Below are positions 4,303-60,300 of a stretch of DNA of 64,000 nucleotides, piece after piece. The position numbers and the translations under genes were made by a program. Below the pieces are notes generated by a model. The model had not been told where the DNA came from. It did no database searches and saw nothing but the letters and a program-made list of their open reading frames with translations. The stretch spans positions 6,652,689 to 6,716,688 of the forward strand of contig JASSKH010000025.1 in the NCBI GenBank assembly GCA_031763025.1, read 5' to 3'. This DNA comes from Macrocystis pyrifera (lineage: Eukaryota > Sar > Phaeophyceae > Laminariales > Laminariaceae). Position 1 is the stretch's first letter, and each line of letters opens with the position of its first letter.

Positions 4303-5548
4303 TATTATATCGTCGGTTTTCCCGTCTGTGAGGTTCCGAAAGGGCTTAAATAATGCGCCGGAGCGTGGCGTGGCACGTGGCCGTCTTCCTGGTCGAGATA
4401 TCCCGCGACTGCTGTTGTTTGCTTGTGCTGCTTGCTGCGGTCCCTATTTATTTGTTGTGTTGTTGCGAAGTCTCCATGTCTTCGGTATCTGCTCCCACAC
4501 GATACGGTCGACCGCGAGGCCTTCGGGATGTGGTGCTGGGGGCTGGGGGTAGCTTTCGTTTGTTCGTTTTGCTCTTTGTTCCTGCTTGGTCCACCAACTG
4601 TGCGTAGAACCTACTACCTGGTATTAAAATACCAGCGAACCATTGCTTTAAAACCTTGTGCGCCATGAATGCAGGGTGTTTTTTTGCTGCTGCGGCTGTT
4701 GTTGCATCTCGACAGCAGTATAATGACGACCGCATACAGTAGTATGTGACGACAGCAGTTGTACAACTGACCACGGACACGCGACACCAGCCACAGCAGA
4801 CAAAAGCAGTAGTAGGGCCGTTTCCCATTTGCTTGAGCTGTTACACGCAGGGGGCATCCAACAGGAGTACGCACAAAAGCAAAGGAGCTCCAAGTCGAGC
4901 GTCGACTTTCCTCACCGAAGTAGAATCCGCTGCTGCGTTGCATGCTGCCGGTGCTGGCGCTGGTACCGGTACCAGTGCTGGCGCTGGTTGCATGGTGTTC
5001 TTCAGCCGATAACGATCTTGCAACATAACCCACATTACTCGAAGTGAAGAGGGCACCAACGCAGCCAAAGATGAGAAGGAATTCTATCGCCACGACACAC
5101 GGCGAGCACCAAGAACTCCGCATGGTGAAAGGTACGACACCTACACGCCCCGAATGAGCCTGCAGGCCTGATGTGTTGCGTACAACAACAGCAGGTATAC
5201 CTTGTCCATATACTGCTGCTTTACCAACATGCATACCAACATGTCCTTTTTCACAGCCAACAGCCAACATCAATGGGAATCCTAGTCATTCCCATTGGCC
5301 AACATGTCGCATTCTTTTTTAAGGGTGTTCCAAAATGTCTGCAGGCCTTACTATCAGCATGATTGGCTGATTTTATCGCGTCATGCCATCCGCTGGCGTC
5401 GTCTTTTGTTTGTTTTCTGTTTCGTTTCTTTTCTCTTCCTTTCGGGACCTCGCACAACAACAGGAACCCGCGGATTGCACGTAGCTCGGAGCGCACCCCC
5501 CCCCCCCCCCTCTCCCCTTCTCTACTTCAACCGCACAGGGCAGGAACC
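4303..5548. other. Upstream region of the desaturase gene
   Basis: No gene or clear promoter motif. A TACCTGGTA motif lies at 4615, CAG-rich sequence at 4690-4990, and a 16-nt C run at about 5498-5511 shortly before the start codon, probably in the 5' leader. Confidence 0.5.
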
Positions 5549-57300: not shown

Positions 57301-60300
57301 GTGCGGAACAGCAACCGTGGTGCAGCTGTCGAGGTCTCGAGCGTATCCTCTGTTTTTTTGCTCGATTGCTCGGTTTTCGTGATGGTTGGCTGATCAGGCC
57401 GAAAAATTGGGCTTGCGGTCGCCATGATTTCTTTTGAGGCGCCACCGCCGGGGTACGATGTGATATGGTCAGTGGCCGTGGGCGCGGCTATTGCTTCGGT
57501 CGCCAGTCGTTGAGGTTCGCGTTTTATCGCCTCGACGGTGGTCACGGAAGCGGCCAAGAATCACCCAGACTCCAGCGGGGGTGTTGATCCACCATGAACA
57601 TGCTACATCAAGGCTGATCAACTCCCAAATTCGAAATTGAAATTAGAAAAAACACACGAAAAAAGTCCCAAAAGGCTTTTCACTCAAATTGATTTTTTCT
57701 AATTTTTCCCTTCGAATCCTGCCTGGTCATTCACTCTTTGGCCAATCAGATGCAAATTAAACTAGAAAAAAAAAAATCGAATAAAATTGAAAGGACCAAA
57801 AGTCCTCGATAAGATGGGCCCTAAAGGACCTTTACTCTGCACAAGGGAATTAATCGTATCACGTAGTGTTCAAGGTAAGGCACTCTCAAGGCAGCAGCTA
57901 CATAGTACTCCCATTGCTGTCTCTGGAAGTGGCTACACCGAAAAATTAAACCAACCCATTGAAGCTGCCATCCATATGCAAGTCCGCCTCACAAGCGGTT
58001 CTTAGTAGGATGCAGCTCACCCTTCATGCGACTCGCCGGACACCTCACGGCGCTTCTTCGCGCTTGGCGCAAGCAATGTCTGCCTGGTCGGTGAAAACCC
58101 GACATGCTCCGTCCCGGCAATGTAGGGATGCGAGGGTCTATGGTCATACGACTACGGCCATGCATAAGATCGAGTACATCTCTCCTATCGAGTACACACC
58201 CCCCCCCCCCCCCCGTCTTCTTTGTAGGATGCAGCTCACCCTTCATGCGACTCGCCCAACACACTAGGGCGCTTCGCGCTTGGTGCAAGCACAGTTCGCC
58301 AGGCCGGTGAAAACCCGACGTGCTCCGTCCCGGCATTGTAGGGGTGCGAGGGTCTATTGCATGACAACGAGTACAACCCCGCCCCCCCCCCCCCCCCCCC
58401 CCCGCCCCCCCGGACGTCGAAAAAAAACGGCAAAAAAATAGAAAAGACTTAAAACTAACTTCGGCCGCCTGGGAAAATTCTCGGAAACTTCTCGGAATGA
58501 AGATGAAACGAGACGCGTGTCACGGTATTCATGTAGGAGTAGCCCGTGAACTCTCTGAGGCTCCGAACGAGAGGAGCCCTGCACCCCATCCACTTGTTCC
58601 AACCCTTTTAGCGCTGCTGTAGTCCCGTTTCGACGGACAACCTTCTAAAAAAATTGAGCGGTTTTGTCTCGAACAAGGGACTGCAGTTTTGTGCCCTCGA
58701 AAAGGTTAACCTAAAAAAAAAACACACACACACACACACTTACACAGCCTTCTAGAGCAAACTGCAGTCGGACCATAGTAAATGGGACCAAATTTTGTTA
58801 GTAAAATTAGGAAATATATAGGTTTTGGTGTGTACCGTAGGTGCTATTCACTATGGTCCTCCGTAATACTCTATTTTCAACTAGTTGTGTCTCCAAAAAA
58901 AGCCACGACCCAACCCCGTGACACGCCCAAAAACGTGGTATATGATATTTTTTATCATCACTTTTACTTTCCAACCTCGTAACTCGTAGGAGGTTTTCTT
59001 TACCCTCAGCGAGCTTCTGGACAAGCCGTGGTCACAGGTGTCGTCCCTTCTCCCCCCCCCGATACGTGCCTTTATTTTTTGTCGCGCATAGGGTCCAGCA
59101 TTCCTTCCCACTGCTCGTCGACTTTCGAATTCATCGAATGTGTAGCTAAACTCACGCTCTCGCGCTTTCCCGCTTGTCAATTCTTTATGTTAAGAAAAAG
59201 TCTCTACGAGCACGCACTCGAAAAAAAAAATAGGGTCTTTCTCCCCAAATCCTAACTACGTATTCTTTCACTACACACTGAAAAAAACAACAATCCCATA
59301 GCAATCAAAAGAGGCCCGTCCCTATGTACAGCAGTAGTATATACTCCCCGAAGTCCTTTTTTTTTCTTCTTCATTTCTCGCGACAAAAGCCGATAATTTT
59401 ACCTGGTCTTGTCTCTATCTACTATATATACCTGGTATGACCTTAACCCTCTCCGGACTTCAGAGGGGGGGAAAAAAAAACTTGCAAAAAAACATGGATA
59501 TCTACAGAAACGGCTACAGTAGCTGCGTGTTTTTGGGGGATGATCTTCTTCCAACACGGTTGTTGAGCTGCGATGCAGGCATTCGTGCTGCACGGGCGCA
59601 GCACGACTCCACCCGAAACGCCGGGCGCCTACGCAGCTCGCAGGACGGCCGATACGTTTTGGTCGCTATCGAGGAGACCCGTAGGGGGGGTGTAGATGAA
59701 CCAGGATGGCCCTGCATCTTAACAACGGGCTTTTGCAACACAATACTATGCTGTACGCATCGATTGCGAATGTACCGGGCAGCTCCTCAGTCCAGGAGCC
59801 CCGTCGGTCGGGGGTACATATTTAATAGGACATATGGTATACATAAAAACTCATATATTTACCTATTTTTACTAACAAAATTTGGTCCCGTTAACTATGG
59901 ACCCCGGTAATAATAACAAATGCATCCCCTAGTTGCCATCAATGTCGTAACACGTCTCATGAGGAGTTGGCATTACTGGGGGGGGGGGGGGGGGGGGGGG
60001 GGGGGGGGGGGGGGGGGAAAAATCATCTTCCGGGAAAACGTGGGAGTCTTTTTTTTTGTTCATCAACAGCTGGAAACACCAGACCTATACCTAACTCACG
60101 ACGACAACGACCATGGCAGCATCGACAGCATCAGTACCGGCAGCAACAGCAGCAGGAACAACAATATCAACACCACCACCACTACCACCACCACCACCAC
60201 CACCACCACCACCAACTACACCAACTACACCAACTACCGCCACAACATCAACATCAAAAGACACAACAACAACAGCAACAACAACAACAACAACAACAAC

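Follow-up and report, generated by a model that had tools for sequence, protein, structure and literature searches.

The DNA analyzed here, referred to as the window, is a stretch of 64,000 nucleotides of Macrocystis pyrifera (positions 6652689-6716688 of contig JASSKH010000025.1) in which the palindromic word TACCWGGTA recurs in dispersed form. We interpret these words as probable excision scars of a DNA transposon and refer to them as scars below. An earlier note on this DNA had listed 18 positions and claimed an over-representation of about 35-fold. All of the listed positions are exact (18/18), exact matching across the 64 kb finds 18 words in total, and dinucleotide shuffles of the window give a mean of 0.46 and a maximum of 4 (100 shuffles), an excess of about 39-fold. 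The over-representation of TACCWGGTA is thus confirmed as real.

Among window words of the form TA-X5-TA, TACCWGGTA has the lowest P value, by a narrow margin, with TAGGWCCTA (n = 12) and TAGTAAATA nearly equal. The C/G-centred word TACCSGGTA occurs once, versus 0.60 expected. Shortened by one base at each end, ACCWGGT occurs 23 times versus 7 for ACCSGGT, an excess made up mostly of the 18 scars. For CCWGG alone the difference is mild (CCTGG 66 and CCAGG 56, versus CCGGG 55 and CCCGG 42); CCWGG itself thus lacks the enrichment in the window that would be expected of a Dcm/EcoRII methylation site. The scars and related features are as follows (scars are exact matches, and no strand is assigned to the words).

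4615..4623, TACCTGGTA scar
7422..7430, TACCTGGTA scar
8798..8806, TACCAGGTA scar
10388..10396, TACCTGGTA scar
10424..10432, TACCAGGTA scar
14187..14195, TACCTGGTA scar
14607..14615, TACCTGGTA scar
15586..15594, TACCAGGTA scar
19379..19387, TACCTGGTA scar
23495..23503, TACCTGGTA scar
25834..25842, TACCCGGTA, possibly a decayed scar, C/G-centred; the genome-wide excess of C/G-centred words fits decay
35234..35242, TACCTGGTA scar
35714..35722, TACCAGGTA scar
35912..35920, TACCAGGTA scar
37055..37063, TACCAGGTA scar
40414..40422, TACCAGGTA scar
50432..50440, TACCAGGTA scar inside a copy of a miniature inverted-repeat transposable element (MITE); relatives empty
50483..50491, TACCAGGTA scar inside the same MITE copy; relatives empty
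59429..59437, TACCTGGTA scar
50383..50505 (approximate), plus strand, MITE copy with the two scars, aligned with 17 other copies
4189-4305, 12025-12141, 32647-32763, 54168-54284 and others, further copies of the MITE family
3994, 7528, 9796, 9841, 10399, 23635, 26351, 36923, 40952 and 61233, TATTAATA word matches
3994..4001, TATTAATA, second scar type, a clean 6-bp TA insertion
36923..36930, TATTAATA, second scar type, a clean 6-bp TA insertion in another MITE-family copy

Matches to Pfam domains locate five exon stretches among these scars.

~6.35-6.43 and 7.91-8.03 kb, plus strand, Cyt-b5 stretches
~9.5-9.7 kb, plus strand, fatty acid desaturase stretch, weak (E 0.0095)
~16.28-16.46 kb, plus strand, fatty acid desaturase stretch
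~34.51-34.65 kb, minus strand, rRNA adenine dimethylase (RrnaAD) stretch

The Pfam search matched a second RrnaAD stretch in the window, whose position is not among the five located ones. Because the domains are split, introns are implied, and with them the nuclear genome of a eukaryote. Should the first four stretches form part of a single gene, its introns would hold the seven scars at positions 7422-15586. The earlier note had placed all sites in intergenic or intronic DNA; none falls within the five located stretches, which is compatible with that placement but, short of a full gene model, does not prove it.

Insertion at TA and target preference

The note read the word as a footprint, and this finds support where relatives of the same repeat can be compared with and without it: the difference is an exact 7-bp insertion that turns TA into TACCWGGTA. 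At least 18 copies of an inverted-repeat MITE family of about 115 bp, with ends TTACGGGGG...CCCCCGTAA adjoining TA, are present in the window, and 18 were aligned. At 50483, the 7 bp are absent from 17 of 17 aligned relatives, 15 of which have TA, one CA, and one TG. At 50432, the word is likewise absent from 17 of 17, with TA in 13, TG in 2, and a gap at the T in 2 (the first alignment there gives an 8-column gap, owing to a run of A). A MITE copy 3' of the window (L025:1904) carries a third word at the same TA as 50432. This copy has diverged in a different way and its word has the alternative centre, so the TA shared by the two copies was probably hit twice.

Similar comparisons come from other repeats. 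In a tandem array of contig C1, the word is present at L005:5952, where the close copies L003 and L006 have plain TA. For L025:5434 and its sister at 2795, relatives were scored without the word at 8 and 10 places, some of these alignments being loose. These full/empty pairs show filler and one TA added at a pre-existing TA, as in a Tc1/mariner footprint; neither a binding site nor a repeat unit accounts well for them. Words common to near-identical copies (three in L016/L018 and two each in L003 and L005) are uninformative on insertion, and the outcome was weak or mixed at L025:2987, L025:5649, L011:5477, L013:4723, and L017:2062.

In a 294-kb sample, 46 distinct sites, giving 92 half-sites, were compared in their flanks with other TAs and differ from them. 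Half-sites have A at -6 in 45 cases, T at -4 in 43, A at -3 in 40, C or T at -2 in 65, and A at -1 in 42, whereas T at -1 occurs in only 3 of 92, against a background of 19%. The pre-insertion consensus of the 46 sites reads ANTAYA[TA]TRTANT, symmetric and AT-rich around the TA as in Tc1/mariner targets; it is close to the consensus given for Tc1, CAYATATRTG (PMC9635669). The centre base is A in 25 of the 46 sites and T in 21, and A and T are found nine times each among the 18 window sites. The statement that both centres occur therefore holds, and their attribution to repair of an A:A mismatch would fit the counts.

Genome-wide abundance, decay and a second scar type

In the assembly that contains the window (537,376,219 bases in 223 contigs), TACCWGGTA occurs 121,279 times, versus 2,421 for the reversed control word. 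TACCSGGTA occurs 12,109 times, ten-fold below the W-centred word (reversed control, 2,024). The earlier note would have given up its reading had the genome-wide frequency been near expectation or had TACCSGGTA been equally enriched; it is sustained on both points, since the W-centred count lies far above both the control and the C/G-centred word. A palindromic filler with an ambiguous centre, as would come from two overhangs that pair with a mismatch, is again what a Tc1/mariner footprint shows.

Sites within one mismatch of TACCWGGTA number 318,292, leaving 197,013 with exactly one mismatch, versus 98,000-102,000 expected from Markov models (orders 2-4, built from the 294-kb sample). For the reversed word, these models predict 94,000-118,000 one-mismatch sites, and 77,044 were observed. 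The models thus overestimate the reversed word, which leaves the background uncertain and means that the one-mismatch excess could be larger; it is about 95,000-99,000 by the models or 120,000 by the yardstick of the reversed word, which corresponds to 0.81-0.85 or 1.0 times the exact excess. Under simple models without selection or repair bias, a single age would correspond to about 0.09-0.10 substitutions per site (Markov background), and constant production to a span of about 0.32-0.35, with about 340,000-370,000 scars made. The C/G-centred excess over Markov chance is 7,286-9,524, versus 7,469-8,342 predicted from decay of the W centre, about what the centre would contribute by decaying at the same rate as the other bases. 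From these counts, we see no sign that the word is under constraint, and we conclude that its copies differ in age. A young burst, with all scars recent, had been considered from the window counts (18 exact, 6 with one mismatch) and was dropped because the genome-wide one-mismatch excess points to mixed ages.

Adjacent scars that share a TA (TACCWGGTACCWGGTA) occur 5,620 times genome-wide (control, 0), about 11 times the 514 pairs expected under random TA choice. Among the first 50 of the 5,620 pairs (plus-strand rows drawn from the first contigs, so that related copies are possible), the two centres are equal in 27, A-then-T in 22, and T-then-A in 1. If the centres are random and target choice tolerates CCAGG directly before the TA but avoids CCTGG there, about 25:24:1 would be expected. 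Only as a lead, we mention that such pairs could instead arise from a cut 7 nucleotides (nt) inside an end reading CCAGGTA, followed by TA-mediated joining.

A second word, TATTAATA, behaves like TACCWGGTA, which indicates that the scar process extends beyond a single word. It occurs 10 times in the window versus 0.3-1.2 expected, and 94,130 times genome-wide versus 7,522 for the reversed control and a Markov expectation of 2,900-12,600. Clean 6-bp insertions at TA are seen at 3994 (2 relatives empty, 0 full), at 36923 (27 empty, 0 full), and at L026:800 (13 empty, 0 full). The sole relative at 61233 was scored full and is uninformative, and three sampled sites are common to near-identical copies or uninformative.

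Two other words were considered as scars and rejected. TAGGWCCTA is an internal motif of the MITE family, all 12 window occurrences lying within copies, and TAGTAAATA reads in the family consensus (an assignment based on the consensus and not on individual copies). TACWGTA (29 in the window) was rejected as a third scar type because no empty site was scored among its sites with alignable relatives; there was one short match at 54826, and W and S centres number 49 versus 40 in a 190-kb sample.

Origin of the scars

We consider it very likely that the TACCWGGTA words are end-joining scars of a TA-specific, Tc1/mariner-like transposon that leaves 5-nt CCWGG overhangs. In the proposed course of events, a DNA transposon would insert at TA, duplicating it, and would later be cut out. 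The transposase would cut one strand at the element end and the other strand 5 nt inside, and each flank would keep a 3' overhang, CCAGG (or CCTGG), derived from the element ends. The overhangs could then pair as C:G, C:G, A:A, G:C, and G:C, end joining would seal them, and the central mismatch would be repaired to A or T. Of this, the exact 7-bp insertions at TA, the target consensus, the near-equal numbers of A and T centres, and counts in accord with unconstrained decay and mixed ages are observed; the former presence of an element, its identity as a transposon, the 3' polarity of the overhangs, and the mismatch repair are what we infer.

The TA specificity, the target consensus, and the short palindromic filler match the Tc1/mariner superfamily. 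What is unusual is the stagger of 5 nt and the sheer number of intact scars (121,279). Sleeping Beauty excision yields a TA duplication around the filler CAG (PMC8151067), and its footprint has been printed as TAG(T/A)CTA (PMC2874221). The scars described here share with it the TA duplication around a short end-joining filler, the odd palindrome, and the T/A centre, but the Sleeping Beauty filler has 3 nt in place of the 5-nt CCWGG and the kelp genome holds an inherited record of more than 100,000 genomic scars. Tc1 of Caenorhabditis elegans likewise has its TA within a symmetric AT-rich consensus (PMC9635669), but differs in filler length and in that no Tc1-type DDE_3 domain was matched here. 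Fillers of 2-4 bp are given for Tc1/mariner (PMC7913693) and footprints of 0-4 bp for the pogo-type transposon Passer (PMC9976928). DDE_1 domains, like those of pogo-type transposons such as Passer, are present in this genome too; no link was found here, however, between the DDE_1 genes and the CCWGG scar. Pogo-type elements also target TA. For another brown alga, Ectocarpus, many Mariner-Tc1 families and MITEs have been described (PMC12477816), and the main text of that study contains neither "footprint" nor "excision". In the literature searched, we found no description of TACCWGGTA as a footprint, which is not proof of absence, and word searches for the motif gave no transposon paper by title among the matches listed.

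Several observations weigh against an origin from a Tc1/mariner-like transposon. The filler of 5 bp exceeds the 2-4 bp (0-4 bp in some assays) given in the papers cited above; as it lies just outside these ranges, we state that the scar works like a Tc1/mariner footprint rather than that it is one. The source element has not come to light. No element with CCWGG ends was found in the 254-294 kb sampled, and lone TACCWGG ends occur at the level of chance (69 seen versus 62 expected in 254 kb). The best-matching inward pairs in the 294-kb sample turned out to be an AT repeat and scars within two MITE copies, and not terminal repeats; the sample consists mostly of 10-kb stretches, in which long elements could be missed. 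A profile search for DDE_3, the usual Tc1 domain, gave 0 genome matches at E<=0.001. Transposase domains of the DDE_1 (pogo) type, a branch of Tc1/mariner, had 39 genome matches, many with long open frames, which speaks for a source of this kind; the DDE_1 regions fetched (L028-L034) showed no CCWGG ends, but the limits of the regions themselves could not be defined. Two of these, L029 and L030, are embedded in sequence that is about 96-98% identical over 8 kb, which leaves their element ends undefined. After the searches of lone ends, inward pairs, DDE_3, and DDE_1, the scar is not linked to a named family, and the element that the earlier note reported as not visible is still unseen.

The remaining difficulties concern the scars themselves. 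At L006:9439 and L001:9591, relatives have an uninterrupted stretch of equal length that differs by substitutions, and thus some TACCWGGTA matches are not insertions. A list of 42 TA-bounded gaps between alignable repeats in 254 kb includes TACCWGGTA twice and TATTAATA twice, whereas the other 38 are different words, many of which lie in tandem repeats such as the C1 array or in DNA of low complexity. One-mismatch neighbours number only 6 in the window, versus a genome average of 23.5 per 64 kb (P ~2e-5), which the simple picture leaves unexplained, and the ratio of 22:1 between A-then-T and T-then-A pairs is not given by random centres alone.

Among the alternatives, we regard it as unlikely that the filler was left by a cut-and-paste element of another DDE superfamily that also uses TA. 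The lack of DDE_3 matches and a 5-nt filler beyond the published Tc1/mariner range would suit such an element, whereas the target consensus and the palindromic, mismatch-type filler resemble Tc1/mariner, and the genome does contain DDE_1 domains of the pogo type. It seems to us highly improbable that the host itself removed TA-flanked elements in a programmed way, like the internal eliminated sequences of ciliates, instead of the elements leaving by their own transposition. Such removal would accord with the many scars, with the lack of an element with such ends in the sampled DNA, and with two scar types on a similar scale, but the ages appear mixed, and three scars common to the 98% identical contigs L016 and L018 suggest inheritance. 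Moreover, ciliate excision leaves a single TA and no filler, whereas 7 extra bp remain here. We see similarly little chance that selection keeps the word as a functional signal, such as a palindromic binding site for a protein. Its palindromic form, high frequency, and dispersal would suit such a role, but in repeats the 7 bp are present as a block in one copy and absent from its relatives, and neighbouring scars overlap by a TA. Copies with one mismatch are also more numerous than chance predicts, and those with a C/G centre reach about the number expected without constraint. We regard it as very implausible that the word belongs to an abundant repeat family or satellite, whether as a fragment, an end, or a unit. 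The nearly equally enriched TAGGWCCTA is of this kind, and some TACCWGGTA sites do lie within repeats. However, only two of the 18 window sites lie in MITE copies, a self-search reveals few repeats that span the remaining sites, the sequence outside the 9 bp shows no more than a weak preference for AT-rich DNA, and one-sided matches are at chance.

Taking the Tc1/mariner-like origin together with the second scar type, we tentatively put forward, as a possibility that we rate somewhat below even, that two TA-specific transposase lineages with 5-nt (CCWGG) and 4-nt (TTAA) staggers account for about 200,000 scars that are still intact in this genome (121,279 plus 94,130, minus about 7,000-17,000 expected by chance, or one per ~2.6 kb), with elements mostly leaving and old scars re-used as targets. 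If so, the elements would leave most of the sites that they enter and scars would be the main surviving record, and the re-use of old scars would account for tandem scars. The history of transposons is usually read from the copies that are retained; here, departures are open to counting, mapping, and dating on a scale of 10^5 per genome, and each scar would reveal the chosen target and how the break was repaired. Such scars would directly measure excision versus retention, and they point to a transposase that cuts with a stagger of 5 nt and is so far uncharacterised. They also advise caution, in that enriched short palindromic words in genomes of this kind should not be read as regulatory motifs.

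Other elements and repeats

Several mobile elements came to light alongside the search for a source. An outward-facing TACCAGGCTC pair in contig C1, considered as a source, did not lead to the source, and is perhaps better read as a TA-flanked element of about 984 bp with terminal repeats GAGCCTGGTATC. This element has two scars inside and lies in the C1 tandem array (L005:6815-7798). Near a pogo-type gene, an inverted-repeat element of about 750 bp with ends GGGCCACTCC is flanked by TAA (L028:3357-4110); it is presumably PIF/Harbinger-like. In a DNA search with 5 kb of L028, 40 of 1,703 candidates were scored; besides the query itself, these were 39 copies of the nested ~750-bp element, so that the count applies to that element and not to the transposase part. 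The 39 other scored copies are 97-99% identical, which indicates recent activity.

Large indels between near-identical contigs revealed no source element and one SINE-like insertion. This insertion of about 350 bp, which starts with poly-T, is present in only one of the two 98% identical contigs (L018:2461-2812, compared with L016); it looks like a polymorphism of a short interspersed element (SINE), with the other end tRNA-like by eye. TACCWGG followed by telomere-like repeats was found in only 3 occurrences, and the exact MITE pattern had 0 matches in viral contigs.

Annotation searches of the window with Rfam and for tRNA genes each gave 0 matches. A repeat family ending in ATGATATCGAGTAC and then poly-C (16093-16153, 53007-53067, 29310-29370, and others) is possibly a retroposon with a C tail. 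Elsewhere in the window, single-base tracts reach 124 nt (31633-31756), and tandem arrays of ATCATCTAGATC, GCAAA, and TATGG occupy 33036-33438, 41273-41532, and 48755-49306.

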